Shown: positions 7,736-40,687, counted from the stretch's first letter. The stretch is DNA of 64,000 bases from Thermoplasmatota archaeon (GCA_018818785.1 JAHIRF010000002.1:278595-342594); one strand, 5' to 3'. Notes: generated by a model not told the origin, from the letters alone. Made by a program: numbers and translations.

Positions 7736-8598
7736 TTGGGAGGGCCTCCTGCAGAGGGGCCGTGACGATAGTCAATGCCATTCCAACAGGGATCGGCTCG
7801 GCGATGGGCATCATGCTCCAGTTAGATGCAGAGGTGAGATTATCTCAGGATGATGGATCGGTCAGACTCGAAGGGACCGAAGAGGGGACCGATCTCGTCA
7901 GAGGATGCATCGAAGGTGTCGGCAGAAGAGCGGGCATGCGTGATCTAGGCGGCGTCGTAACCATCCGATCGGACATACCGATCTCAAGAGGACTGAAGAG
8001 CAGCAGCGCAGCGTCAAACGCAGTCGTTCTCGCAGCATCAAGGGCCTTGAACATCCACATGGGCGATGAAGAGATAATCGGGCTGGCCATCGATGAATCC
8101 ATCAAGGCCGGTGTGACGGTCACTGGTGCGTTCGACGACGCATCCGCATGTTTCCATGGGGGTGCAGTCATAACTGACAATAAAGCGAGGCGGATATTGA
8201 AGAGATGGCACGTTCAGGATCCCGTGACCGTGCTCCTGCATGTCCCAGAGAGGAGAATCCGAAAAGAGGATGTAAAGAACATGGATTTCAGCCCGGTCCG
8301 ATCCCAGGTGGAGGAAGCCATCGAAAGCGCACTGAAGGGAGACTACCCCAGGGCGATGGAGCTGAATTCAAAGGCCTGCTCGAAGATCCTCGATGTATCT
8401 GAGGAGGTTGCGGAAGCGGCCAGGAGATCTGGCGCCATCGCCGCCGGCATCTCGGGAACGGGACCGGCCACTGCAGTGCTCGCACGTCATGAGGATAGAG
8501 GGCGGATCATGGACATCCTGGAATCGTTCGATGGAACGATCATCTCAGCCGAACTCAACGACACACCAGCCAGGGAGGTGGTTCCGCGGCGATCATGA
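7732..8598 (+). CDS. aroK: Archaeal (GHMP-type) shikimate kinase
   Basis: 288 residues; ATG at 7732 overlaps the previous stop as ATGA. It belongs to the GHMP kinase family, not the bacterial P-loop AroK. Seen are an N-terminal substrate strand (AVTIVNAIPTGIGSAMGI), the GHMP phosphate loop PISRGLKSSSAASNAV, and the C-terminal AAGISGTGPATAVL. It phosphorylates shikimate to shikimate-3-phosphate. The position between shikimate dehydrogenase and EPSP synthase supports shikimate as substrate rather than homoserine, which is phosphorylated by a related GHMP enzyme. The length matches archaeal homologues. Confidence 0.92.
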   Translation: MIGRASCRGAVTIVNAIPTGIGSAMGIMLQLDAEVRLSQDDGSVRLEGTEEGTDLVRGCIEGVGRRAGMRDLGGVVTIRSDIPISRGLKSSSAASNAVVLAASRALNIHMGDEEIIGLAIDESIKAGVTVTGAFDDASACFHGGAVITDNKARRILKRWHVQDPVTVLLHVPERRIRKEDVKNMDFSPVRSQVEEAIESALKGDYPRAMELNSKACSKILDVSEEVAEAARRSGAIAAGISGTGPATAVLARHEDRGRIMDILESFDGTIISAELNDTPAREVVPRRS

Positions 8599-15464: not shown

Positions 15465-16840
15465 AGGTCATGAAATTCGGAGGGACGTGCCTCGGATCCG
15501 AGGATGCCTTGGATAGAGTATCCAAAGTGGTGCAGGCGGAGAAAGACTCGAAGATAGTCGTGGTTTCGGCCGCATCTGGAGTGACGAACACGCTCAAGGA
15601 ATTCATCTCCAAGCCTAGGCAGGAGAAGGAGATCGATGACCTATTGCTGGCTCTGAGGATGAGGCACATAGACATGTTGCCGAAGACGGAGGGACAGGTC
15701 AGGAAGGAGGCGCTCGACCTCATCGAGGAGAAGATGACCAAGCTCGAGAGGCTGTTGTACGGTGTGACATATACCGAGGAGCTCACGCCACGAACCAACG
15801 ACCTCATACTCAGCTTCGGCGAGAGGCTTTCGGTGATAGTGGTCGCCGCGAGGCTCACGGACGAGGGACTGAACGCGATCGCGATGGAGAGCGACGCCAT
15901 CGGGTTCATCACCAATGATCATCACGGGAACGCTGTGGCGCTCCTGGACCTATGCGAGAAGAACATGGGTGCCAGCCTGGACAGCGCGATAAGACAGGGA
16001 ATCACCCCGGTGGTGACCGGGTTCTTCGGAACGACACAGAATGGTCACGTCACAACCGTCGGCAGGAGCGGAACGGACTATTCGGCTGCTGTGATAGCAT
16101 ACGCCACAAATGCGAAACCCGTTGAGATTTGGAAGGAAGTAGACGGGTTCATGAGTGCCGACCCGAAACTCGTCAAGGAGTCGTTCACAATAGAGTCACT
16201 ATCATATGAGGAGGCCGCGGAACTCGCATACTTCGGAGCGCAGGTACTGCACGCCCGGGCGGTTCAGCCAGCGCGCTTGAAGGGGATAGAGATAATAATC
16301 AAGAATCTCTACTCGCCAGAAGCCCCAGGTACCACGATCGGCAATGGGAAGCAGACGAAGAAGGATGTCATAAAGAGCGTCTCATATGTCCCGAAAGTAG
16401 CCACGTTGAAGGTGTACGATACCGGTGCAGGTTACAAATCAGGATTCCTATCCGACATCACCAATTGCCTCGCGAGTGAAGGTGTGAATATATTCTCTGC
16501 GACCACTTCCCAGACATGCGTCGCCGTCCTCATAGACGAGAACCAGATACACCTAGCCAAACGCGCGATCAAGAGCATCATAGGCGGGGTCGGCGAGAGC
16601 TTCGAAATAAAACCGGGGGTGGCCCTCGTGTGCACGGTCGGGGAAGGTTTGGGCTACACCGAAGGTGTCGCGGCCAGGGTATTCAAAGCGGTCGCATCAA
16701 AGAAGGTGAATGTCGACCTCATCTCGGCGGGAGCATCCACGGTGGCGTATCACTTCACGGTAGACAACAAGGACCTGAAGAAGACAGTGATGGCAATACA
16801 CAAAGAGTTCTTCACCCCGGTCCAGAATGATGCCGACTAG
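15461..16840 (+). CDS. lysC: Aspartate kinase
   Basis: 459 residues. The N-terminal KFGGTCLG motif (usually KFGGTSVG, so cysteine replaces serine), TVGRSGTDYSAAVIAYA and WKEVDGFMSADPK are kinase-domain signatures; the last 130 residues carry tandem ACT domains (SGFLSDITNCLASEGVNIF and GVAARVFKAVASKKVNVDL). The ACT domains imply feedback control by an amino acid. The start is TTG 15461, overlapping the previous stop (TTGA), with ATG 15470 as an alternative. It ends the operon; it makes aspartyl phosphate for asd three genes upstream. Its stop and that of the converging oxidoreductase share the bases CTAG. Confidence 0.94.
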   Translation: MKVMKFGGTCLGSEDALDRVSKVVQAEKDSKIVVVSAASGVTNTLKEFISKPRQEKEIDDLLLALRMRHIDMLPKTEGQVRKEALDLIEEKMTKLERLLYGVTYTEELTPRTNDLILSFGERLSVIVVAARLTDEGLNAIAMESDAIGFITNDHHGNAVALLDLCEKNMGASLDSAIRQGITPVVTGFFGTTQNGHVTTVGRSGTDYSAAVIAYATNAKPVEIWKEVDGFMSADPKLVKESFTIESLSYEEAAELAYFGAQVLHARAVQPARLKGIEIIIKNLYSPEAPGTTIGNGKQTKKDVIKSVSYVPKVATLKVYDTGAGYKSGFLSDITNCLASEGVNIFSATTSQTCVAVLIDENQIHLAKRAIKSIIGGVGESFEIKPGVALVCTVGEGLGYTEGVAARVFKAVASKKVNVDLISAGASTVAYHFTVDNKDLKKTVMAIHKEFFTPVQNDAD

Positions 16841-18780
16841 ATTATCTTGACGAAGGTCGAGTTGAAGGCGGAGTTCTGCCCGTACTTCTGCACGAAATCC
16901 GTTGTGACGAAGTTGACGTTCTTGCCGCCACACAATTTAGGCCACAGCACGGAATATGTCACCAGAACCCCGGGAAGGACACTGTCAGAGGTCTCGCAGG
17001 TCACGGACCATTCGTCGAATTCGTTCTTGAGAGTGATCATAGACCCGCTCTCGATGTTCTCCTCGAGGGCATCCTTCTCGCTGATGTATACCACGGGTCT
17101 GATGTCTGGCCATCGGAGATGATACTGGGACCTTACGAGGAATTTGTGCACTGGTGAAAGCAGGATGAATGGCTGCGTTCTTCGCACCTCTGCATGAACG
17201 GGCAATCCGCCCAAACCCTCGGCTTCTGCGGCAGCGGAAAATAGCTCGATCTTCCGAGTAGGCGTGCTGTAAACCGACCTGTTCGGGACCTTCATCCTCA
17301 AGAAGCCTTTCTTCGTCAGGTCCTCGAACTTGCCTTCGACGGACTTGCTCTTCGATAACAGCATGCGTGCGACCTTCTCGTCCTCCTCGAAGAGTTCCTT
17401 GGTTTGCAGGTTCATGATCTTTGCGAGTGATCTGAAAACATCACTGTTGGACCTGGCTTCGCCTATCGGTTCGATCGCTTTCTCGTTTATCGAGAGGTAA
17501 TTGTGGAGATACGAGGTGTGGATATCGAAATGTTCGAAGAAGCTGGTTGCAGGGAGCACGATATCTGCATGGTCCGCCGTATCGGTCATGAACAGATCGT
17601 GAACGACAGTGAATATGTCCTTCTTCATGAAGCCGTCCCGCAGCAGTCTCTGGTTGGGCAGCGTTGCCAGCGGATTGGAATTGTATACGAACATCATCTT
17701 TATCTTGTTCGACTGGAGGGTACGACCGATGTCCACCATGTTATGCATCACACGCATCCGAGTACGGAGTGAGGCGCCCTCCAGATAATCCATGTCGAAA
17801 TCGCCTAGGTCAGTCGAGTAATAGAATCCGCGGTTCTCACCTATCAAGGCGGGCAGTATGCTGATCGCACGGACCATCTCACCGCCATTCCTATGGCGCT
17901 GCATCCCGTATCCAATCATTATGCAGTTTGGTCGGAGGGATACGAAATCTCCGATGAAATCCTCGACCTCTCGAGTCTTAAGACCAGTCGTCTTGCAGAT
18001 CTTGGTCATATCATACTTGCTGGCCGCGCCCACTAACCTGTCGAAACCAGTGGTGTTCTGATCCAGGAAGACTTCATTGCACAACCTGTTCTCGATCAGA
18101 TGGTTTATGATACCAAGCGCGAGTGCCGCATCAGTGGTCGGTTTGATCTGCAGATGTGTCCCAAGTTCAGTCGTGGCTGACTTCACGGGATCGATGATGT
18201 ATATCTTCGTGCCGCACTTCTTGGCGCGCTTGAGCATCTCGAATGTATGAGCACTACTCCATGCAGGGTTCATTCCCCACAGCACAATGAGTCTGCATTT
18301 CTCGATCTCATCAGGAAGCATTCCAAGTGTGGAACCATAGACGATCTCAAGAGCCTTCTCTCCTGCACGAGAGCAGATGGTATGCGACACCCTAGATGCC
18401 CCGATGACATTGAAGAATCTGGTCGGAAAATATCTCTGGACCAGGCCCATAGTTCCAGCGTAATCGAATTGGAGAATCGATTCCGGGCCATGCCGGAGAG
18501 ATATCTCCCGAATATTCTCAGCTATCTCTTTTAGAGCGTCGTTCCAAGTGATCTCCTCGAACTTACTCGCACCCTTCTCGCCGGTTCTTCTGAGAGGATA
18601 CAGGATCCGCTGTCTCGAGTACACATATTGTGAGATATTCCGTCCTTTAGGGCACAATAGATCGCCGGTGAACGGATGCTTCTTATTGGGTTCTGTCGAG
18701 TGCAACTTCCCATTCCTGACTCTCGTTACGATTGCGCACGTGTCATAACAATCTCTGGGGCAAGTGTTGAAGATGAACAA
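16837..18780 (-). CDS. Molybdopterin (bis-MGD) oxidoreductase, substrate unknown
   Basis: About 647 residues. Near the N terminus a CPRDCYDTC motif plus a cysteine in LLCPKG bind one 4Fe-4S cluster, followed by Mo-binding domains of the DMSO-reductase family; SHTICSRAG probably holds the metal ligand. The C-terminal beta-barrel domain is intact. The chosen start is TTG 18780, with GGAGGA 6-7 nt upstream and a TATA element (TGTATAAATGG on the minus strand at 18832-18841) giving a leader of about 30 nt. The ATG at 18837 overlaps that TATA box. No signal peptide, Fe-S subunit or membrane anchor gene is adjacent, so a cytoplasmic single-subunit enzyme is likely. Formate, polysulfide and other substrates cannot be told apart. 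Confidence 0.87.
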   Translation of the reverse strand: MFIFNTCPRDCYDTCAIVTRVRNGKLHSTEPNKKHPFTGDLLCPKGRNISQYVYSRQRILYPLRRTGEKGASKFEEITWNDALKEIAENIREISLRHGPESILQFDYAGTMGLVQRYFPTRFFNVIGASRVSHTICSRAGEKALEIVYGSTLGMLPDEIEKCRLIVLWGMNPAWSSAHTFEMLKRAKKCGTKIYIIDPVKSATTELGTHLQIKPTTDAALALGIINHLIENRLCNEVFLDQNTTGFDRLVGAASKYDMTKICKTTGLKTREVEDFIGDFVSLRPNCIMIGYGMQRHRNGGEMVRAISILPALIGENRGFYYSTDLGDFDMDYLEGASLRTRMRVMHNMVDIGRTLQSNKIKMMFVYNSNPLATLPNQRLLRDGFMKKDIFTVVHDLFMTDTADHADIVLPATSFFEHFDIHTSYLHNYLSINEKAIEPIGEARSNSDVFRSLAKIMNLQTKELFEEDEKVARMLLSKSKSVEGKFEDLTKKGFLRMKVPNRSVYSTPTRKIELFSAAAEAEGLGGLPVHAEVRRTQPFILLSPVHKFLVRSQYHLRWPDIRPVVYISEKDALEENIESGSMITLKNEFDEWSVTCETSDSVLPGVLVTYSVLWPKLCGGKNVNFVTTDFVQKYGQNSAFNSTFVKII

Positions 18781-18914
18781 TGGGTGTCCTCCGAGGCACA
18801 CTCTGAGCGACTCTGGCAGATAATAGGCTACGACCATTTATACATTGGCGGTTCATTCTCAGGATCATAAATGAGTTCTGGCAACAGGACTAAGACCAAC
18901 CTTGATCCCTCGAC

Positions 18915-29421: not shown

Positions 29422-29518
29422 GGAAACCTACCTACACATCGCATAGAAGGGTCAAGTAATTTACGAATCAGATAGAAAGCTCAAATGTGTCGATTACTTG
29501 CGCATACCCTGCATAAAT

Positions 29519-30352
29519 ATGAACCGGGGAGAAATCAAATTATATTCCCTTTATCAATCAAGTGTGGGTGGAAATCTGGAGGAATCCGTTAAGGAGCCTA
29601 GATTCATTGGCCTGAGGAAATTCAACATCGCAATGGGCTTTCTGCACCTCATCCAAGGGGCGTTGATGCTCTGGTTGAGCAAAAGCTCATCGTTACCCAT
29701 CAATCTCACTCTCCTGCATTATGATCCTGTCACGGAGACCATAAACTCCCAGACGGATACACTCATCAACCTCCAACTTGGGCCTATGATCGCATCGTTC
29801 CTGTTCATTTCTGCGATCGCTCATTTCGCTGTATCCTCTCCCAGAGGATATCCATGGTACGTCAAGAACCTGAAGGAAGGAATCAACTACGCCAGATGGT
29901 ATGAGTACGCTGCAAGCTCCTCAGTCATGGTGATCGTCATTGCGATGCTATGTGGCATATTCGAACTCTCCAGCTTGATACTCATATTCTCATTGAATGC
30001 GACGATGAACCTGTTCGGCCTGATGATGGAACTCCACAACCAGACGACGAAGCGTACGAATTGGACTTCATACTTATTCGGATGCTTTGCGGGACTGCTT
30101 GTGTGGATAGTATTGGGGATCTATTTCTTCGGAGCGCTCCTAGGATCCGGGGATTCAGTGCCGACCTTCGTGTATTTCATATTCATATCGCTTGCGATCT
30201 TCTTCAATGTGTTCGCGGTGAACATGGTCCTGCAATACAGAGCGAAAGGGAAATGGAAGGACTATCTCCATGGAGAGAGAGTCTACATCATCCTCAGCCT
30301 CGTTGCGAAATCCGCATTGGCATGGCAGGTGTTCGCTGGGACCCTCCGATGA
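29519..30352 (+). CDS. Heliorhodopsin
   Basis: About 277 residues with seven hydrophobic helices. Diagnostic segments are FNIAMGFLHLIQGALML (helix A), RWYEYAASSSVMVIVIAM with the glutamate counterion in helix C, and SLVAKSALAWQVFAGTLR, whose lysine, 14 residues from the end, is the expected retinal-binding residue. The N terminus is predicted cytoplasmic, opposite to type I rhodopsins. Heliorhodopsins are known from Thermoplasmatota and other groups; they do not pump strongly, and a sensory or regulatory role is suspected. The start is uncertain: TTG 29498, ATG 29519 or a downstream GTG. No retinal-synthesis gene is in the window. Confidence 0.93.
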   Translation: MNRGEIKLYSLYQSSVGGNLEESVKEPRFIGLRKFNIAMGFLHLIQGALMLWLSKSSSLPINLTLLHYDPVTETINSQTDTLINLQLGPMIASFLFISAIAHFAVSSPRGYPWYVKNLKEGINYARWYEYAASSSVMVIVIAMLCGIFELSSLILIFSLNATMNLFGLMMELHNQTTKRTNWTSYLFGCFAGLLVWIVLGIYFFGALLGSGDSVPTFVYFIFISLAIFFNVFAVNMVLQYRAKGKWKDYLHGERVYIILSLVAKSALAWQVFAGTLR

Positions 30353-30480: not shown

Positions 30481-32553
30481 ATGTCAGATTCTTCGAAAGC
30501 CCCGGAAACGGGCACCAATGAGATTGATGAGAACAAGGAAAGCATCGCGGCCCCAAAGAAGGCCGGCATGGGCTCGACCGCCAAACTGATCGCCCTCGCA
30601 GTGATCGTCGTGCTTCTAGTTGCGGTGCCAATGGGATATATGCTTACTCAGAACACAGATGATGAACCTGAAGACGAAGAGACTCTGGTCACACTGGAGG
30701 GAAAGACCGCTACAGATGAATTGACTGCACCCGAACTTGCAGGAATGGACTATCTCGAGGAGGAGTCTTCCTACCAGAACAGCTTCGGCAACTGGAAGGG
30801 GTTCGGAACCTACAGGGGTGTCGAACTTCGTGACCTCGCCGACCTGGTTGGCGGAATGGAATCAGGGGACATAATGACAGTGACAGCAGCTGATGGCTAC
30901 GGTCAGAACCTCTCATACGATCAGGTCTATGCCGAGGGTGAGTGCCTTGAGATCCAGGGTCAGATAATCCTGGCATACATGTTCAACGGCACGGATATCC
31001 CTGAATGGGAAAGCGGCCCGATGATTGCAGTCTTATCGCCGGACGGTGCATTCAGCAACGATGATCTGAACGAGACGGTATCTGATGAGCCTGAATTCAG
31101 CTCGACCACATCAGCGGGATCCCTCTGGGTCAAGAACGTTGCATCAATAAAGATCACTACGATGGCCGAAGGCGCAACAGTGCTTACCATTACAAAGGAT
31201 CAGACCTCAATCGACCTAACGATGGAGGAGCTCAATGATATGACCGCAACTACGGCTCCGGGGGGATTCAAGAAGACCACTGGAACCATAGAAGGGCCAT
31301 CCGAATTCACGGGAATACCTCTTACGGATTTCGTCGATCTGTTGTACGCAGGTACGGACTACAGCCTGGAGGTAGTCGCCACTGATGGTTACACGATGGC
31401 ATATAGTTCAGGCCAAGTCGAGGACGGCACTTTCGCATACTACGACCCGGAGGACGGATCGCTCCTCGGAGAAGGAGATTTCACGATGATCGTGGCCTAT
31501 GCGCAGGACGGATTACCCCTGGAAGATATGGACCTGCGCATAGCCATTGTTGATGAATCGGGTCCGATAACCGATGGTCACTTCTGGGCCAAGTATGTGA
31601 GATCGCTCACCATCCTTCCGTTCATGAAGGATTGGACACTCAACCTGAGCGGTGTGACGGACCTTCAGATCGACAGACAGACCTTCGAATCAGTCGCATC
31701 CTGCGAGTACCATGCTGCCTCATGGACCTTCGTGAACGAGACTGGAACCCACGAATACACAGGTGTCGCGCTCTGGACCCTCGTCTCTGCGGTCGATGGT
31801 GCAGATGGACCTGCCACCGACTACCTATTCAACGATCTGCTTGCGAAGGCGGGCTACAATGTGACAGTGGTGGCTTCGGATGGATTTGGAGCCGACAGGC
31901 CATTCGACTCACTGCAGGTGGCAAGGAACGACACCCTCATAGTCGCGAACAGGCTCGATGGAGAACCACTCTCCGAAGATGATGACGAATTCCCGCTCAA
32001 GCTCGTGGGTGATGGTCTGACGTCAGGTCAGAGGATCAAGTCCATCGCGAACATCTCGATCGTCGACATGCATGAAGTTCCGACGTGGACTCTGAATCTG
32101 ACAGGATTGACGAGCGCGGTGATAACTGCTGAGACCTATGTTGCCACTTACTACTCAGGACTGCACGCGAAGAACTTCACATACACAGACTACGGTGGGG
32201 TGCACGCAGTGTACTACAATTATACGGACAGCGAGGAAGTAGCGCACACTTACGCGGGTATTCCACTGTGGCTCCTGGTTGCAGTGATGGATGGAACGGA
32301 CGAGAGCCACTACGAGCTGAACAGCACATTGGCCGCAGAAGGCTATGATATAGTGCTCACGGCTTCGGACAGCTATTCAGTGACAATAGACTCGGCAACG
32401 GCAGCGTTCAACGACACGCTCGTTCTCGCGTTCATGCTTGACGGGGAGATGCTAACCGATATGGCGCCTCTGAGGCTCGTGAACGAGTTCCTGCCGGGCT
32501 CGATGAAGATCAGCAACGTGGTGGACATAGACCTCGAGAACCTGCCAATCTGA
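30481..32553 (+). CDS. Membrane-anchored surface protein with four sulfite-oxidase-fold-like modules
   Basis: 690 residues from ATG 30481 (GGGAGGAG upstream). A short cytoplasmic N terminus precedes one membrane helix (LIALAVIVVLLVAVPMGYML, residues about 36-55), then an acidic linker and four modules of roughly 150 residues. Each has the pattern: tryptophan/strand, TGVPL-type turn (YRGVELRDL, FTGIPLTDF, YTGVALWTL, YAGIPLWLL), a DGY/DGF turn (AADGYGQ, ATDGYTM, ASDGFGA, ASDSYSV), then LAY plus dGxpL, and a closing strand. This is the pattern of the molybdopterin-binding domain of sulfite oxidase relatives, but no conserved catalytic cysteine is seen, so a binding rather than redox role is inferred. 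It heads a five-gene ECF transport operon. Confidence 0.75.
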   Translation: MSDSSKAPETGTNEIDENKESIAAPKKAGMGSTAKLIALAVIVVLLVAVPMGYMLTQNTDDEPEDEETLVTLEGKTATDELTAPELAGMDYLEEESSYQNSFGNWKGFGTYRGVELRDLADLVGGMESGDIMTVTAADGYGQNLSYDQVYAEGECLEIQGQIILAYMFNGTDIPEWESGPMIAVLSPDGAFSNDDLNETVSDEPEFSSTTSAGSLWVKNVASIKITTMAEGATVLTITKDQTSIDLTMEELNDMTATTAPGGFKKTTGTIEGPSEFTGIPLTDFVDLLYAGTDYSLEVVATDGYTMAYSSGQVEDGTFAYYDPEDGSLLGEGDFTMIVAYAQDGLPLEDMDLRIAIVDESGPITDGHFWAKYVRSLTILPFMKDWTLNLSGVTDLQIDRQTFESVASCEYHAASWTFVNETGTHEYTGVALWTLVSAVDGADGPATDYLFNDLLAKAGYNVTVVASDGFGADRPFDSLQVARNDTLIVANRLDGEPLSEDDDEFPLKLVGDGLTSGQRIKSIANISIVDMHEVPTWTLNLTGLTSAVITAETYVATYYSGLHAKNFTYTDYGGVHAVYYNYTDSEEVAHTYAGIPLWLLVAVMDGTDESHYELNSTLAAEGYDIVLTASDSYSVTIDSATAAFNDTLVLAFMLDGEMLTDMAPLRLVNEFLPGSMKISNVVDIDLENLPI

Positions 32554-32561
32554 GTCAAAAC

Positions 32562-34058
32562 ATGAAAAACTCAAAGAGAAGCAAGATCGCCCTGATGATC
32601 GGCTCGATAGCCGTAGCATGTCTGCTATTGGCATCGATCACCGTGCTCCTGCGCATCGACGATGAAGGAGTAGATATCACTGGAGGCACCTTGCTTTCTG
32701 AAAACTCAAACAGGGTCATAGTCAGGTGCCTCTCTCCTGACGTGACCCTGTCACTCCGAGGATTTTCGGGAGAGGTGATTTTCACAAATTGCGTTCCGGA
32801 CGCCCAGGTCTTGGGCTTTGACGGCGCGATATCACGTGAGGGTATGAACATATCATTCGTGGTTGATGGAGGCGATGGCCAATATCAGTTGAACTCTCCG
32901 CACAAGACGGATTTCTGCTTTGCAGTCCTTGGAGACAGTCAGGGATTCAACAACATCTTATCGGAAGCCCTCCGAAATCTGGAGGATTGCGAGTTTGTCA
33001 TCCATTGCGGGGATATGACACCATCGGGAATGCCAGAGGAATTCGACTCGCTCCAATCAGCGTTCGATGAATCGCCAGCACCGGTATACACGACTCCAGG
33101 AAACCATGATGTGAAGAACAATGGTAGTGTGGAGTATCAGAATCGCTACGCGCCGCTGTCATATTCATTCGAATATTCAGGGATAACATTCGCGATTGTC
33201 GACTCGTCCGACCTCAACATATCCGAGGAGGAGATAGCATGGATGGAAGATGTCTTCGAGGATGCGGACAGAAAGGTGATCGTCACCCATGCACCATGCT
33301 ACGACCCATATACTGACAATCACACACTTGATCCATCGTCGTGCGAAAGATTCCATGAATTTGTGCTCAGTCGAGGGATAGACGCAGTATTCGCTGGCCA
33401 TGTCCATGCATTCGACTATCTCAGGATTGAAAACTCAGATTTTATAATCACGGGTGGCGCGGGAGCGTCTCTGGATAATGGGACCCATCATTTTGTGATT
33501 GTCACAGTCTCGACCTCAGGGTTCGCCTATGAGAAAGTCGACATCTTCGGCATCAATCAGACCGGCGAGGGAATAACATTGGTTGCCAAGAACGGCATAC
33601 AGTCGAACTTAACATATGATGATCTGAAGGCGATGACACCAGTCCATCTGTATTCATCATACGAGAATCTCTTCGGCAATATCGGAGGACAGGGATTCTA
33701 TACAGGAGTCCGAATCTCGGACCTGATTTCGATGATCGGAGGCATGGACGATGGAGATATCCTACGGATCACTTCCACTGACGGATTCTTCCAGGATTTC
33801 GGATACCTCAATGTCTACCCCAATGAGACTTGGTTTGATCTGCAAGGGTTCATGACACTGTCGTTCGAGTACGAGGGAACGGAGATACCAGATTGGCAGG
33901 ACGGACCCAGGTTGTCGATGCTTCCCAGTGATGGATTTTACAGCAACTCGGATTGCGAGATAACATCATACGAAGGTCAGGGATATGACATCTATCCCTC
34001 TGCTGGCTCAAGGTGGGTTAGGAATGTGAGCGCCGTCTCGATTCTTGACGGGGTGTGA
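32562..34058 (+). CDS. Membrane-anchored calcineurin-like phosphoesterase with a sulfite-oxidase-fold-like module
   Basis: 498 residues. An N-terminal helix (IALMIGSIAVACLLLASITV) anchors the protein outside the cell. Residues about 105-310 are a metallophosphoesterase with all metal motifs: VLGDSQG, HCGDMTP, TPGNHD, VTHAP and AGHVHAFD. Residues about 350-498 repeat the module of the neighbouring genes (YTGVRISDLISMIGGMDDGD, STDGFFQDFG, final GSRWVRNVSAVSIL). The combination suggests an extracellular enzyme that removes phosphate from a ligand that the module helps hold, before uptake by the ECF transporter encoded next. That link is inference from domain sharing and tight gene spacing (8 nt upstream gap, GTGA overlap downstream). 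Confidence 0.83.
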   Translation: MKNSKRSKIALMIGSIAVACLLLASITVLLRIDDEGVDITGGTLLSENSNRVIVRCLSPDVTLSLRGFSGEVIFTNCVPDAQVLGFDGAISREGMNISFVVDGGDGQYQLNSPHKTDFCFAVLGDSQGFNNILSEALRNLEDCEFVIHCGDMTPSGMPEEFDSLQSAFDESPAPVYTTPGNHDVKNNGSVEYQNRYAPLSYSFEYSGITFAIVDSSDLNISEEEIAWMEDVFEDADRKVIVTHAPCYDPYTDNHTLDPSSCERFHEFVLSRGIDAVFAGHVHAFDYLRIENSDFIITGGAGASLDNGTHHFVIVTVSTSGFAYEKVDIFGINQTGEGITLVAKNGIQSNLTYDDLKAMTPVHLYSSYENLFGNIGGQGFYTGVRISDLISMIGGMDDGDILRITSTDGFFQDFGYLNVYPNETWFDLQGFMTLSFEYEGTEIPDWQDGPRLSMLPSDGFYSNSDCEITSYEGQGYDIYPSAGSRWVRNVSAVSILDGV

Positions 34059-35137
34059 CCAGGATGAAATATCACTTCACAACGAAGGACCTGGTCACGA
34101 TAGCACTCCTGTCCGCGCTTGGCGGTGTGCTATCGACATATGTGGGTTATCTCGGCAACATGGTGAATCACATTGTCGGAGTTCCGTTCGGGGCAGGCCA
34201 GTTCCTTTCGGGATTGCATGTCATCTGGATCATGCTGGCAATCGCCCTGACGAGAAAGAAGGGCGCGGGCACCGTGACTGGACTCGTCAAGGGCATAATC
34301 GAACTGTTCATGGGGAGCACACACGGGATCGTCATAGTCGTGGTCTCCATGATGCAAGGTATCATCCCCGACATGGTGATGTTCAAGGATAGCACTAAAT
34401 CCGATCGAAACATCTACGCATACACATTCGCAGGAGGGCTATCCGCAGCAACCAATGTCGTGGTTTTCCAGATATTCTTCTTCGCTGGAATCCCGATCAT
34501 ACTCATCGCAATGTTGTGCATGTTGGCATATGCATCAGGGATGATATTCGGCGGATGGCTCGTGCTCCAAATGCTGGATACATTGGAGACATCGGGAATC
34601 GTCCGCGGACGAAAACCGATAATAGTGGATTCACCCGAATTTGATGAGAAGGCGTATCTGGAGCAGAAGGGGAAGAAGAAGAAGGCCATCGCAGCGATGT
34701 CGGTTGTGGTCGCGTTCCTTGCAGTGTTCGCCATCGGGGGAGTATATTATTACATGTTCGTTTTCGTCCTGCCAGGTTCGGATACCATTGAAATAACCGG
34801 CGATGTGCAGAACCCATATGATTTCAGGTACAGCGATTTCGAGAACCAGGAGGTCACGATCAACGCCGAACTCATAGGCTCGGTGACTTATGTAGCACCC
34901 AAGAACTATACGGGTGTGCCCATCAACATCATAATCGAAGAGTCGTCTCCTGGGGATGATGCTTCAGATGTGGTCGTCTGGGGAAGTGACGGCTACACAG
35001 TGGTCTTCTCATTTGTGAACGTAATGTCAGATGACAATCTAATACTGACCGCGGAAGATGACATCTATACGCTGGTAGCTGCTGAATATGAAGGTGCGTA
35101 TTGGGTCGAGGACGTCGTCAAGATCGAAGTGAGGTAG
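34055..35137 (+). CDS. YkoE-like ECF substrate-binding (S) component with extracytoplasmic module
   Basis: 360 residues. Residues about 1-190 hold five to six membrane helices; the segment LSGLHVIWIMLAIALTRKKG followed by ELFMGSTHGIVIVVVSMMQG resembles the YkoE family (GIWFIVSVIAAYMIRKPG and QGLGAE in Bacillus YkoE), whose transporter imports thiamine or its pyrimidine precursor. A sixth or seventh helix (residues about 215-240) leads to a C-terminal module of about 115 residues facing outside (YTGVPINIII, GSDGYTVVFS, YWVEDVVKIEV), the same type as in the two upstream proteins. Such a tail is not part of normal S components. GTG 34055 (overlap) or ATG 34064 starts it. Substrate: thiamine-like is possible but unproven. 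Confidence 0.8.
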   Translation: MTRMKYHFTTKDLVTIALLSALGGVLSTYVGYLGNMVNHIVGVPFGAGQFLSGLHVIWIMLAIALTRKKGAGTVTGLVKGIIELFMGSTHGIVIVVVSMMQGIIPDMVMFKDSTKSDRNIYAYTFAGGLSAATNVVVFQIFFFAGIPIILIAMLCMLAYASGMIFGGWLVLQMLDTLETSGIVRGRKPIIVDSPEFDEKAYLEQKGKKKKAIAAMSVVVAFLAVFAIGGVYYYMFVFVLPGSDTIEITGDVQNPYDFRYSDFENQEVTINAELIGSVTYVAPKNYTGVPINIIIEESSPGDDASDVVVWGSDGYTVVFSFVNVMSDDNLILTAEDDIYTLVAAEYEGAYWVEDVVKIEVR

Positions 35138-36610
35138 ATGCTCGAAGTATCGCACCTGTGCGTCAGGTATGAGAATAGGTCCATTCCTGCAGTCCAAGAC
35201 ATATCCTTCTCAATCGGACACGGAGAGTTCGTCGTACTAGCTGGCGATAGCGCATCGGGCAAATCGACGGTCATGCAAGCCGTGTGCAGATTCATACCTG
35301 AGATCATCCCTGCAGAACTATCCGGCTCGATCAGAATAGATGGAGATGAACTAGTCGACCCAATTGATACTGCACGATTCATAGCAATGGTGCAGCAGGA
35401 TCCAGAAACCCAATTCTGCACTGAAACGGTCGAGGAAGAGGTCGCGTTCGGTCTTGAGAATCTCAGGTTCAAGGAAGAAGATATCCGTCGTAGGGTCCAC
35501 GAGGCGCTGGAGATGGTTAATGCGTCTCACCTGATAGATCAAAGCATATCCACTCTGTCTGGAGGGGAGAAGCAGAAGGTGGCAATCGCATCAATGCTCG
35601 CGCTCGACCCTAGAATATTGATACTGGATGAACCGACATCTAGCCTGGATCCGAAGTCCGTCGCTGAGGTCGTATCAGCCATCGAGAAGCTCAGAACGGT
35701 AAGGAGCATGACCGTGGTCATCGTAGAGCACAGGGTCCGTGGATTCATAGATATGGCGACTAGGATCATCCTTATGGATCGGGGGAAGATAGTGCATGAT
35801 TTCACGGTTGAGGATTTGAAGTTCGCAGGAATCTGTAAATCGCTGACAGGGGCTCGCAGTTATCCAAAGATTGTCCCAAGGGAGGGAACCGTCCTTACCA
35901 TCAATAATCTCAGCTATCAGACTGGAGGAAAGAAGATACTGGATGACGTGGGGCTCACTGTGACGGATGGAGCAGTGGTCGCGCTCATGGGAGAGAACGG
36001 CGCAGGAAAGACGACTCTGCTGAAACACATCATGGGACTGATCAAGGTATCCTCAGGTTCAATAGAATTCAAGAACCATCGCATAACCGAGAACAACCCA
36101 GTCGAACCATGGATACTGGGTAGAGACATCGGGTTGGTCTTCCAGAATCCGAATCACCAGATGTTCGAGAAGACTGTCGAGAAGGAGATCAAGTTTGGGC
36201 CAGAAAACTTCGGCACATCGATGGAAGAGGTTAAAAATACGATCGCGTCTTTTGAAAGCACCGAAGGAGTGCGACGATACGTCCATCCCCAATGCCTAAG
36301 CTTCGGACAGAAGAGAAGAGTGAACATCAGGTCCGCGTCTGCCCATGGCCCTAGCATACTCCTCCTAGACGAACCCTTTGCTGGACAGGACGAGAATAAC
36401 GTATCTAAAATCATGGAATTGCTTGCCAATCTTCAGAGATCCGGCAAGACCATCATTGTCGTGACTCACGACATTCAATTCGCGAGAGGATTCTGCACAG
36501 ACGCCCTGATCATGAGGCATGGCAGGGTAGTTGCAGATGGACCTATTGAGAAAATATCTGAAGAGTCTTGGCAGGATATCCTTCCAAAAGGAGGGAAGAT
36601 GGATGGATAA
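35138..36610 (+). CDS. Fused double ECF ATPase (EcfA-EcfA')
   Basis: 490 residues with two complete ABC domains. Domain 1: Walker A GDSASGKST, signature LSGGEKQKVAIASML, Walker B ILILDEPTSSLD and switch histidine IVEHR. Domain 2: Walker A GENGAGKTT, signature LSFGQKRRVNI (F in place of the usual second G), Walker B ILLLDEPFAGQDENN and VTHD. Both have the Q-loop QNPNHQMF/QQDPETQF typical of ECF ATPases. It powers the transporter with the neighbouring S and T components. The ATG immediately follows the stop of the S component, and the gene overlaps ecfT. Confidence 0.92.
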   Translation: MLEVSHLCVRYENRSIPAVQDISFSIGHGEFVVLAGDSASGKSTVMQAVCRFIPEIIPAELSGSIRIDGDELVDPIDTARFIAMVQQDPETQFCTETVEEEVAFGLENLRFKEEDIRRRVHEALEMVNASHLIDQSISTLSGGEKQKVAIASMLALDPRILILDEPTSSLDPKSVAEVVSAIEKLRTVRSMTVVIVEHRVRGFIDMATRIILMDRGKIVHDFTVEDLKFAGICKSLTGARSYPKIVPREGTVLTINNLSYQTGGKKILDDVGLTVTDGAVVALMGENGAGKTTLLKHIMGLIKVSSGSIEFKNHRITENNPVEPWILGRDIGLVFQNPNHQMFEKTVEKEIKFGPENFGTSMEEVKNTIASFESTEGVRRYVHPQCLSFGQKRRVNIRSASAHGPSILLLDEPFAGQDENNVSKIMELLANLQRSGKTIIVVTHDIQFARGFCTDALIMRHGRVVADGPIEKISEESWQDILPKGGKMDG

Positions 36611-37352
36611 GCCTAACGCCATCAACCCCCTGGCCAAGTTCCTCATCTTGATAGTACTATCAGTCATGGTCTTTCAGATTTCCGATCCCGCATACATGGT
36701 TCTGTTTGTGGCAGTGGTAATCGTGGCAAAGGTTCTGACGAATGCAAGGAGCACATTGACTAAAGGCGTCATGTGGTTCGCTTTCGCCATATTCCTCGCC
36801 CAAGTGATATTCAACCATTCGGGAGATATCGCCGTCACAATACTGTTCCTCGACGTCAATTGGGGAGGAATAGTAACAGGGGTTTTGATCGCTGGAAGGT
36901 TTCTGGCATTGATCACGATGTCATGGATATTCGTCGCCACGACAAGAGCCTCAGATTTCTCCTCTGCGCTCATAAGCTCCGGAATGCCATACAGATTCGC
37001 ATACCTGCCGGCATTAGCGATGAGATTCGTTCCTGTGTTCCAGGTGGAATTGAGCGCGGTCCGCGACGCTCAGGTCACTAGAGGTTTGAGGTTGGACAAG
37101 AGCATCAAGGGGATCGTCCGGGCGGCACGATATACGACCATGCCGATGTTGATCTCAGCGATGTCGAAGGTCAACACTCTTGCAGCCTCTATGACGGGCA
37201 GAGGATTCGGCGCATATCCGAAACGTACATTGCTCAAGCCACTTCGCATGACCGTATGGGACATCTTACTGGTCATATCCTCTATCGTACTGGCAGTGGC
37301 AATCATCTATTTTTCCAGATGCTATGAGATCGACTTGCTCGTGCATGTCTAG
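36603..37352 (+). CDS. ECF transporter transmembrane coupling protein EcfT
   Basis: 249 residues from ATG 36603, preceded by GGAGGG and overlapping the ATPase gene by 8 nt. Five to six membrane helices flank a cytoplasmic coupling region with the two EcfT arginine motifs: AARYTTMPMLISAM and AASMTGRGFGAYPKRT. It transmits ATPase motion to the S component. It is the last gene of the operon; its stop shares the bases CTAG with the stop of the converging kinase-like gene. Confidence 0.9.
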   Translation: MDKPNAINPLAKFLILIVLSVMVFQISDPAYMVLFVAVVIVAKVLTNARSTLTKGVMWFAFAIFLAQVIFNHSGDIAVTILFLDVNWGGIVTGVLIAGRFLALITMSWIFVATTRASDFSSALISSGMPYRFAYLPALAMRFVPVFQVELSAVRDAQVTRGLRLDKSIKGIVRAARYTTMPMLISAMSKVNTLAASMTGRGFGAYPKRTLLKPLRMTVWDILLVISSIVLAVAIIYFSRCYEIDLLVHV

Positions 37353-38065
37353 AACTCGTCCCAAGAAGAAATCTTGTCGGCCCATTGGTCCATTTGGGCG
37401 CAATCGCTCCTGAATCCACCGTAGTATCTGAGTGCACTTGACACGGAGCCAGGAAGCTTTGACCTAATATCCGTCTTAATTCTATCCTCATATCGAGCGA
37501 CTATCATCCTGGCAAAATCGAACTTCGCATCAGTGAACATCGGTCTTGTGGCTATGACATATGCACATACCTGCCCCAAGTCTTCGATGGAATCGCCCTC
37601 ATGGGATTCCTCGAGATCTATTCCGACTAGCATTCCGGGAGCATCGATGAAATTACGGAGAATCGAATCGCCTCTGACCAGCTTGAAATCGAACGCCTTG
37701 TGGAAAGAATATAGCCAGGACGCAACACGATCGGCGAGTTGGTCCAATGCCACATCACCCGCCCTTTGACACGCGCCTTCGAAACATGAATCAAATAACT
37801 CGGACGCATTATCTCCATCGACATGGCTCATGACGAAAGCGTTCTCCAACTGCAAGAGTGGTTCCGGAACAGATACCCCATATCGTTTGCATCGGCAAAG
37901 AATCTCATATTCGTTGGCAATCGAACGCGCCCGGCCAGGTCCAGAGACTTTAGCCACGCATATCTTTCCTTCAAGATTCACTTTGAACACTCTATTCTTC
38001 CTGCTGAAGAATGGTTCACCGACCCTCATCCGCTCCAGGTCGGCAATTGACAGATTATCGGCCAA
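37349..38065 (-). CDS. Protein kinase/phosphotransferase-fold protein
   Basis: 238 residues with a divergent kinase fold of the RIO/APH type: an N-lobe lysine in KICVAKVSGPGRARSI, the glutamate in NEYEILCRC, a catalytic-loop-like VRGDSILRNF (HGD with arginine in place of histidine), and a metal-binding aspartate in VGIDLEESHEGDSIEDLG. Similar proteins in archaea are annotated as predicted Ser/Thr kinases. The aspartates needed for catalysis are kept. The substrate is unknown. It converges on ecfT and stands alone. Confidence 0.72.
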   Translation of the reverse strand: MADNLSIADLERMRVGEPFFSRKNRVFKVNLEGKICVAKVSGPGRARSIANEYEILCRCKRYGVSVPEPLLQLENAFVMSHVDGDNASELFDSCFEGACQRAGDVALDQLADRVASWLYSFHKAFDFKLVRGDSILRNFIDAPGMLVGIDLEESHEGDSIEDLGQVCAYVIATRPMFTDAKFDFARMIVARYEDRIKTDIRSKLPGSVSSALRYYGGFRSDCAQMDQWADKISSWDEF

Positions 38066-38865: not shown

Positions 38866-40392
38866 TCACTGGGGCACTGCAACCAGTTCACCAGATAGTG
38901 GTGACTCCAGCAGGCTCTGCATCAACTCGACTGCAGCCTGGGCTATTCCGCCATCCGTGACTGTGAGCAACAGACAAGCGGCATCCATCTCTCCGCTGGA
39001 AATCAATGCTCTAGCCTCATCCTCGATGGCAATCACATCGACGAGCTGTTCGCTCTCCCACTGCTCGTAGACTGGAACCAGATCGCCCCACTCATAGAGT
39101 CCGCTGCTCCTAAGCTGAGATGCAGCGCTCCAGGCAAGTCCCTTGACATAATCCTGAAGAAGTACGCTCGCAACATCCAGCTCGTTGAGGATTGCATTGT
39201 GCAACGCAACATATGGCGCCCACACAGGACCGTTTATTGCCATCCACATCACAGACAACTCTTCCACGTTGGTGGGATCAGAGCGGAATACTGAAGCGCT
39301 CACAGTCCTTGCGTTGGAGATCGAGAAACCAGGCCATCCATCCCACCAGCAGTCGTCCGGAATCTCGGGATGCGCATCCTTCACTGCGTTCGTGTTCGGG
39401 TTCCCGAAGTTCTCAAGATCCCTCGTGAAGCTCATCACCGTCTGGACATCAAGCACGGGATTCTCGGCCAATAACTCCAACCCACGATCGTATCTCGCCA
39501 CCGATGGTGTCCAAAAGTAGCGGAATGATCCATCTAATACCCAAGAATGGAAAGGTTCCATGACATAGTGGTTGGTATGGACATATGCACCATCCGTTAT
39601 TATTTGGTACAATGTGTCTGGCGTATTGATCACTGATGGGACGGTCTCTACGAAGGCCGCTATGGATGCATCAGACAATATGAATGTCGCACCCTCAGCT
39701 TTCGGAACCTCGCCGATCAGAGCGATGGCCTCATTCACATCCGCACACTGTTCCATTACCATCTGGTTTACGATGAACGGTGCATAACCCGGATCATAGT
39801 ATTCGGGAACTGGCATCCAAGTGTGACCAATGGACAGACCCATCTCATTGATACCCTGAGAGATACCGACCGCACCAGCAGACATCATGCCAATGAATTT
39901 GTATCCAGAATCCGGTTCAACGAGCATGAGGACTTGCATGTTGTTCTGGTCGCGGTTCTTTGATGTGATTGGCACGCCATCAGTCGTTCCACTGCCAGCC
40001 GCGGCGAAGCATGTGCAGGCTTTCTGTTCGTAGTCGTCGTTTCCGTACTTGTTGAACGTTAAGAGATCGTTGTACGAGACTCCCGATGTCTTTGACATGC
40101 CTTTCAGTTCGTCGATTACTTCAGACGTAAGGTATGCCTCATCTGCCAACGCATCCGCAATCAACGCTTGCTGCGACAATCCATTCACTGAGACCCAATC
40201 CCAGAACTGGGCAACATTGCTCACGATCGCGTCCTTGGCCATCGCACCATATTGAAGACCCATCTCTCGAGGTGTCCCACTCAGGTACAAGACCGTTGTC
40301 TCAGACTTTCCGCCTCCACCATCATTCTTCGCAAGCATCGGCACTGCCATCGCAGATAACACGACGGCGACTAGCACGAATGCTGCGCTCAT
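38866..40392 (-). CDS. Secreted C45-type Ntn hydrolase (acyltransferase/amidase-like)
   Basis: 508 residues from ATG 40392 (GAGAGGA upstream; a TTG at 40431 opens the same frame). A signal peptide (FVLVAVVLSAMAVPMLA) directs export. The mature part has GTPREMGLQYGAMAKDAI, then the autoprocessing site region KACTCFAAAG, where a cysteine becomes the new N-terminal nucleophile in this family, and NRDQNNMQVL, SAGAVGISQGINEMGL. Family knowledge: C45 / phospholipase-B-like hydrolases cleave amide bonds in acylated amino compounds. The natural substrate is unknown. A TATA element (TTATATTT on the minus strand near 40460) precedes it. Confidence 0.82.
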   Translation of the reverse strand: MSAAFVLVAVVLSAMAVPMLAKNDGGGGKSETTVLYLSGTPREMGLQYGAMAKDAIVSNVAQFWDWVSVNGLSQQALIADALADEAYLTSEVIDELKGMSKTSGVSYNDLLTFNKYGNDDYEQKACTCFAAAGSGTTDGVPITSKNRDQNNMQVLMLVEPDSGYKFIGMMSAGAVGISQGINEMGLSIGHTWMPVPEYYDPGYAPFIVNQMVMEQCADVNEAIALIGEVPKAEGATFILSDASIAAFVETVPSVINTPDTLYQIITDGAYVHTNHYVMEPFHSWVLDGSFRYFWTPSVARYDRGLELLAENPVLDVQTVMSFTRDLENFGNPNTNAVKDAHPEIPDDCWWDGWPGFSISNARTVSASVFRSDPTNVEELSVMWMAINGPVWAPYVALHNAILNELDVASVLLQDYVKGLAWSAASQLRSSGLYEWGDLVPVYEQWESEQLVDVIAIEDEARALISSGEMDAACLLLTVTDGGIAQAAVELMQSLLESPLSGELVAVPQ

Positions 40393-40687
40393 CTTAATTC
40401 CTCTCACGATTCCCCTCCACACTTGCGCCAATGAGCAATCCTTTTCCCTTAAAATATAAGGGCAGTTAAACCATTGAATCCGGATTACTGGCGCATCAAA
40501 GACATCTATCCCATCTACTAAGTCATTTTCGGTTCATGATTAGAAAGATGATTTCCGCATTCGCCGCAATTATGCATAGAAGAGCACAATTGTCACGGAC
40601 TCCCCGGATTGGGCAGATGGCGGAGCACAATGCCATTGGCGCGGAAATTCTCAATCCTTGAATAAGGGCATCGGATTCGAAAGGATT

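Follow-up and report, generated by a model that had tools for sequence, protein, structure and literature searches.

We describe a gene cluster, present in a Thermoplasmatota archaeon as well as in many further anaerobes, that most likely serves to scavenge and import the molybdenum or tungsten cofactor (Moco/Tuco), a pterin-dithiolene cofactor. The chemistry of formate, aldehydes, CO2 and sulfur depends on Moco and Tuco, which have so far been regarded as something that every cell has to produce for itself. To our knowledge, no import system for the finished cofactor was known before. The assignment of the ligand to the class of molybdenum/tungsten cofactors is strongly supported by two independent lines of evidence, riboswitches in related operons and the replacement of cofactor synthesis in archaeal genomes that carry the cluster; we infer the binding, the exact imported species, the order of the steps and both phosphate reactions. 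The more specific reading, namely the first microbial importer of a complete metal-loaded pterin cofactor, with capture modules from a disarmed molybdoenzyme fold, dephosphorylation outside and rephosphorylation inside the cell, has in our judgement a little better than an even chance of being right.

The window, i.e. the whole stretch of 64,000 nucleotides that was analysed, belongs to a genome of 1.97 Mb (94.5% complete) whose relatives are named Thermoplasmata or Euryarchaeota. As a first-pass annotation had stated, five tightly spaced genes are present at 30481-37352. They follow one another directly on the plus strand, adjoining genes overlapping by 4–8 bases or being at most 8 bases apart, and each was identified by Pfam and NCBIfam in a profile search of the window. 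The first gene (30481..32553, 690 aa) encodes a surface protein with an N-terminal transmembrane anchor followed by four modules of the sulfite oxidase (SUOX) fold that have no catalytic cysteine; its start codon is the ATG at 30481, preceded by GGGAGGAG. Downstream follow the genes for a membrane-anchored surface metallophosphoesterase with a C-terminal SUOX-like module (32562..34058, 498 aa), a YkoE-type ECF S component (34055..35137, 360 aa), a fused double ECF ATPase (35138..36610, 490 aa) and the transmembrane coupling protein EcfT of the CbiQ family (36603..37352, 249 aa). A sixth gene on the minus strand (37349..38065), coding for a putative small APH/RIO-like kinase, is convergent with the EcfT gene and overlaps its end. 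It belongs with the five-gene set and is often conserved alongside it.

Oxidored_molyb (PF00174) matched the surface protein in three stretches (E 1.2e-16, 61.3 bits versus a cut-off of 24). For counting the modules, a profile was built from the C-terminal domain of the phosphoesterase; in a search space of three sequences, it matched residues 68-227, 234-313, 415-442 and 577-660 of the surface protein with i-E values of 1.4e-55, 1.5e-11, 0.0014 and 0.016. Module 1 (30682..31161, plus strand like all six; residues 68-227, 174.9 bits) is nearest to the phosphoesterase module, and module 2 (31180..31629, residues ~234-383) reaches 31.7 bits. Modules 3 (31633..32085, residues ~385-535) and 4 (32098..32550, residues ~540-690) are weak with the phosphoesterase-derived profile, which touches the latter at residues 577-660; module 3 is the best PF00174 stretch (ORF residues 445-558, corresponding to protein residues 418-531). 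The module of the phosphoesterase (33573..34046, residues 338-495) was located by profile and alignment, that of the S component (34775..35134) by its Foldseek and VIA similarity to SUOX enzymes and to PruR, a protein that binds pterins. In Pfam the C-terminal domain of the S component scores 16.8 bits, which is under the cut-off. In the AlphaFold2 model, its residues 241-360 match sulfite dehydrogenase (2BLF) with a VIA Z of 16.3 (1.7 Å, 119 residues), and the next matches are further SUOX enzymes and PruR at Z ~14 (7KOS, Z 14.1).

Profile, PF00174 and structure matches thus bear out the earlier count of four, one and one modules across three proteins. The sulfite oxidase fold that had been assigned to them also holds: the structural comparison returned it for the C-terminal domain of the S component, and not an unrelated Ig-like fold. 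A pattern of TGVPL, DGY or DGF, and LAY had been described as occurring six times; the six modules stand, but the motif as written is loose. The actual strings at the TGVPL position are YRGVEL, FTGIPL, YTGVAL, YAGIPL, YTGVRI and YTGVPI, DSY replaces DGY in module 4, and LAY is absent from some of the six modules.

The column of the Mo-ligand cysteine was placed by aligning the conserved GN of the modules with the CxGN motif of the SUOX family; the GN and GAR-W-V-R/K stretches resemble the cofactor-site motifs of that family. In 38 phosphoesterase homologues this column (position 370) is mostly Q, L or R and never C, the S modules have no cysteine at the equivalent place, and the surface protein contains only Cys155 and Cys408. 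Since the catalytic Mo-ligand cysteine is missing, the modules, which comprise about 120–160 residues, look like binders rather than oxidases. PruR has a SUOX fold without this cysteine as well and binds pterins, with a preference for tetrahydromonapterin (PMC13259868). Given this precedent, the modules look like cofactor-binding domains akin to a domain of molybdoenzymes.

The resemblance of the S component to YkoE, pointed out earlier, is confirmed by a match to ABC_cobalt/YkoE (PF09819, E 2.2e-18, 67 bits versus a cut-off of 25.2) and a profile match to YkoE of known structure (PDB 5EDL, E 5e-16). In the AlphaFold2 model (pLDDT 85), a YkoE-type domain (residues ~7-198) is joined by a linker helix to the SUOX-like module. 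Residues 7-198 superimpose on 5EDL with a VIA Z of 23.0 (2.9 Å, 189 residues) and on ThiT (3RLB) with a Z of 13.4. YkoE, the known relative of this S component, is linked to thiamine, which is a counterpoint to the cofactor reading. The double ATPase matches both TIGR04520 (354.6 bits, cut-off 315) and TIGR04521 (353.3 bits, cut-off 330) within one chain. Pfam detected ABC_tran in this protein and CbiQ in EcfT (PF02361, 100.8 bits). Judged by its sequences, the cluster would be a member of the ECF class of transporters whose predicted ligand and putative extracellular capture module are both new.

The phosphoesterase matches Metallophos (PF00149, E 1.2e-15). Its AlphaFold2 model (pLDDT 92) is similar to the glycerophosphodiesterase GpdQ (VIA Z 25.5) and to purple acid phosphatases (Z 23–24). 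It has the calcineurin-like fold and the residues of the dinuclear metal site, which are invariant in 38 homologues. Matches of the catalytic domain fill the VIA list of this model, and the assignment of its SUOX-like module is based on sequence. The kinase-like protein contains the catalytic Lys, Asp, Asn and Asp of the APH/RIO superfamily; among 37 homologues encoded beside the operon, Lys39, Glu52, Asp133, Asn138 and Asp150 are kept in 36–37. Its Pfam scores are near the cut-off (21.8 versus 22 in the window; 23.5 versus 22 and 24.4 versus 23.2 at locus L073), and a PDB sequence search gave no useful match. Based on the gene neighbourhood, we propose that it is a cytoplasmic kinase for the imported cofactor. 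The phosphoesterase would in turn remove a phosphate, a role that the kinase partner makes more likely.

When GTDB species genomes were searched with an alignment of S components, 127 relatives emerged. The best 80 of the 127 come from Thermoplasmata, Thor-, Loki-, Hermod- and Heimdallarchaeota, Theionarchaea, Bipolaricaulota and many Bacillota, among them the isolates Thermovorax subterraneus DSM 21563 and Anoxynatronum buryatiense. Fifty loci extending 2.5 kb or more to each side of the S gene were used to count the gene set: nearby were a module gene in 49, an ATPase gene in 50, an EcfT gene in 49 and a kinase-like gene in 28. The association of module gene and S gene is far beyond chance and extends across phyla; the absence of module genes beside the S gene, which would have counted against the first-pass annotation, did not occur. 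The S protein tree separates sequences from Asgard archaea, Thermoplasmata and Bacillota plus Bipolaricaulota and thus gives no hint of a very recent transfer from one group to another. Upstream genes in relatives were considered as parts of the pathway and rejected for want of a cofactor link: an aldo/keto reductase with FeS (L025) as well as an IF-2B family protein, HycI, a tRNA endonuclease and an LRR protein (L073).

The same annotation had proposed to look for the gene set in other archaea and for its co-occurrence with Mo-cofactor genes. The set is found in Thermoplasmata, Asgard archaea and Theionarchaea, and archaea with the cluster have almost always lost genes of cofactor synthesis. 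Gene absence was scored for MoaC, MoaE and MoeA by HMM searches of all six frames, for which 14 genomes served as controls. Within the order of the window, 13 of 21 genomes encode the S component. In these carriers MoaC (0/13) and MoeA (0/13) are absent and MoaE was detected once (G019), compared to 5/8, 7/8 and 5/8, respectively, in the non-carriers. All 13 carriers encode aldehyde ferredoxin oxidoreductases (AFOR) and PF00384 enzymes and therefore appear to need the cofactor. The inverse relation between carrier state and MoeA is significant in this order (Fisher 6.9e-5, ignoring shared ancestry). As moa genes are clustered in relatives, one missing contig could remove all of them from one genome, but hardly from 13. 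Eight Asgard carriers and one Theionarchaeon likewise lack MoaC, MoaE and MoeA while encoding 2–11 AFORs each.

An independent replicate came from 195 genomes of the Asgard phylum: 46 are carriers, three of these with fragments at contig ends, 77 have MoeA and none has both (Fisher 1.7e-12, ignoring shared ancestry). Another 37 Asgard genomes with partial homologues, either an S-like protein of ~210 aa without the module or a lone module, were not counted as carriers; MoeA is present in seven of them. The swap also occurs within genus g2, where the carrier genome G002 lacks MoeA and six non-carriers among the seven other genomes encode it. An exception is the archaeal carrier G409, the source of locus L055, with MoaC, MoaE and MoeA. 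Bacillota carriers encode MoaC in 10 of 13 tested genomes, so that uptake would accompany synthesis in these bacteria, a salvage pattern common for vitamins.

An Rfam scan identified 21 matches to the Moco/Tuco aptamer RF01055 in 15 Bacillota loci, all of them (21/21) oriented like the S gene. Of the 24 Bacillota loci in which 2.5 kb or more of upstream sequence was available, 14 have the aptamer before the operon, often about 200 bp or less from the first gene. It is found directly before the phosphoesterase or surface-protein gene (L065, L079, L081, L093, L099, L101, L114, L116) or before the S gene itself (L103, L105). At L070 and L089, the riboswitch-led unit opens with a binding protein/ABC cassette, which at L089 consists of PBP_like_2, a permease, an ATPase and a MOT1 molybdate transporter, and continues into the ECF genes. 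Both loci have a second aptamer ahead of a giant protein, which contains SUOX-like domains at L089. In Bacillota, the riboswitch could shut off uptake when the cofactor is plentiful. The scan returned nothing for the window and only tRNAs for the archaeal loci, i.e. neither RF01055 nor a known archaeal regulator. No TPP aptamer was present on the operon in the 45 loci scanned or the window; one match lay on the opposite strand (L074). Stem P3 is missing in all 12 aptamers with alignments shown. Regulski et al. associated aptamers without P3 with the tungsten cofactor and reported that the riboswitch class senses the metal-loaded cofactor (PMC2408646). As an exception, they noted two P3-lacking RNAs before putative sulfite oxidase genes of Syntrophomonas wolfei (PMC2408646). 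These genes may in fact encode Cys-less binding modules.

These observations uphold the interpretation given in the first-pass annotation and narrow its cofactor-like ligand to Moco/Tuco, and we suggest the following sequence of events. The Cys-less SUOX-fold modules on the cell surface would bind pterin cofactor freed from the enzymes of dead cells and pass it along a chain that includes one module on the phosphoesterase and one on the S component. The metallophosphoesterase may cleave a phosphate ester of the cofactor, either the terminal phosphate or that of a dinucleotide form. Import would be carried out by the YkoE-type S component together with the double ATPase and EcfT encoded beside it, and the APH/RIO-like kinase probably puts the phosphate back in the cytoplasm. 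Archaeal carriers have no metal insertase MoeA, which suggests import of a cofactor that already contains its metal. Because Moco in its free form is unstable in air, such a system is sensible only in anoxic habitats.

The main rival explanation is the import of a metal-free relative (molybdopterin without metal, a dephospho form or another reduced pterin) with metal insertion by another route. PruR, the closest solved Cys-less match to the fold, binds metal-free pterins, the modules have no Mo-ligand cysteine, and the substrates of phosphoesterase and kinase would be phosphate esters, as molybdopterin is. However, with MoeA missing from archaeal carriers besides MoaC and MoaE, an unknown enzyme would have to insert the metal, and the riboswitch class has been reported to sense the metal-loaded form (PMC2408646). 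We therefore regard this explanation as rather unlikely. Uptake of molybdate or tungstate, with the oxyanion bound by the SUOX-like modules, could explain why an ABC cassette with a binding protein and a MOT1 transporter occur in the same riboswitch-led unit. Yet such operons already hold two oxyanion transporters, phosphoesterase and kinase would be without a role, the fold is a pterin-binding one and the loss of the pterin pathway in carriers would be left unexplained, all of which makes oxyanion uptake very improbable.

The membership of the S component in the YkoE family and the ECF layout with a double ATPase as in YkoEDC would also agree with a thiamine or HMP importer like that of Bacillus, in which SUOX-like modules replace YkoF. 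We consider such a function highly improbable, because the presence of the cluster follows the loss of Moco synthesis, the conserved GVPFGAGQF region is missing from YkoE, and 21 RF01055 matches stand against the lack of any TPP riboswitch on the operon apart from the opposite-strand match. There is hardly any chance that the modules are active extracellular molybdoenzymes with ECF genes for their maturation. While they belong to the PF00174 family and the two S. wolfei genes behind such RNAs were listed as putative sulfite oxidases (PMC2408646), their small size and the lack of cysteine at the Mo-ligand column, both in the phosphoesterase homologues and in the S module, argue against catalysis.

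A dedicated importer, if true, would make Moco/Tuco a shared good like vitamin B12, and whole lineages of Asgard archaea and Thermoplasmata would be auxotrophs relying on their neighbors for the tungsten or molybdenum cofactor. It would then also predict which uncultured lineages of both groups depend on partners and point to a missing growth factor for culture work. The hypothesis offers an explanation for a puzzle dating from 2008, namely why tungsten-type riboswitches of S. wolfei stand before 'sulfite oxidase' genes. In addition, it would provide a protein set for delivering Moco into cells unable to make it, and Moco exchange between microbes becomes directly testable.

Our search of the open PMC literature revealed no prior description of such a system, and an earlier prediction in subscription papers or preprints, which were outside the scope of this search, is possible. 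On uptake or transport of Moco, the search returned work on Caenorhabditis elegans and passing remarks only. Two reports were dismissed as parallels: the statement that T11SS 'may function in molybdopterin uptake' is a remark on co-occurrence (PMC12282271), and a model paper on E. coli termed cofactor uptake unrealistic (PMC3423039). Dietary Moco uptake by C. elegans resembles our proposal in the use of external, ready-made Moco, but concerns an animal, and no transporter has been named there.

The Bacillus YkoEDC system (5EDL) shares with the cluster the family and fold of the S component, the double ATPase and EcfT. Only the system described here has a conserved region with GVPFGAGQF and YLGN..NH, the fused SUOX-like module and genes for a phosphoesterase and a surface binder, and RF01055 aptamers take the place of thiamine control. 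GpdQ and purple acid phosphatases have the same catalytic domain fold and metal-site residues as the phosphoesterase, whereas the fused SUOX-like module and the membrane anchor are exclusive to the latter. The fold of the modules is that of SUOX molybdoenzymes such as sulfite dehydrogenase (2BLF), SoxCD (2XTS) and MsrP/YedY (1XDQ/1XDY). In contrast to these enzymes, the modules lack the Mo-ligand cysteine and are single small domains that are repeated and fused to transport parts. A Cys-less single SUOX-fold domain is shared with PruR (7KOS, 7RKB), where it is extracytoplasmic and binds pterins. However, PruR signals through DcpA, while the modules are part of a putative importer and no protein of the DcpA type was seen among annotated neighbor genes. 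The papers on RF01055 regulons consulted here name oxyanion transport, cofactor synthesis and enzymes but not an ECF importer, and many of the Bacillota operons found here belong to these Moco/Tuco regulons, with riboswitches of the P3-lacking type.

A likely consumer of the cofactor imported by the predicted system lies in the same window, a molybdopterin enzyme of the DMSO reductase family (16837-18837, minus strand; PF00384), whose top NCBIfam match, formate dehydrogenase alpha, stays under the cut-off. The surface-protein gene is immediately preceded by a heliorhodopsin gene (29498-30352, plus strand; PF18761, 323.7 bits). A relative with 55% identity is found downstream of the operon in the homologous locus L051 (13489-14259), and a heliorhodopsin gene adjoining the operon was seen in no mapped locus other than these two. 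Past the kinase gene, the minus strand encodes a probably secreted protein resembling acyl-CoA:6-aminopenicillanic acid acyltransferase and choloylglycine hydrolase (38866-40431).

In 37 Asgard genomes, for example G588, G507 and G516, only partial homologues were found. These are mostly YkoE-like proteins some 210 aa long that lack the SUOX-like module, and a few of the genomes have the module alone. In the stretch 14227-19029 of L085, from Anoxynatronum buryatiense, a Moco/Tuco riboswitch lies ahead of a second ECF S component of a different kind (PF12822) and of a molybdoenzyme of the xanthine dehydrogenase type. This arrangement hints at a further importer related to the cofactor in that species. 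L074, from a Candidatus Acetothermia genome, has a TPP riboswitch on the opposite strand (7860-7963, minus strand) beside an S-like gene.

Giant proteins of 1600-1800 aa that resemble the surface protein, each preceded by its own Moco/Tuco riboswitch, are encoded at four homologous loci (L070, 13662-18515; L089, 13674-19053; L097, 13829-19029; L105, 13718-19003). One neighbour of the giant protein in L089 carries a dockerin domain, and a SUOX-like protein of Thermovorax (L079) has S-layer anchoring.

Cys465 of the phosphoesterase (33954-33956), within the motif SNxDCxxTS, is kept in 33 of 38 homologues, and in the S module residue 245 is a cysteine in 25 of 41. Both residues could possibly contact the metal or the dithiolene; Cys465 occupies a position different from that of the Mo ligand in SUOX.
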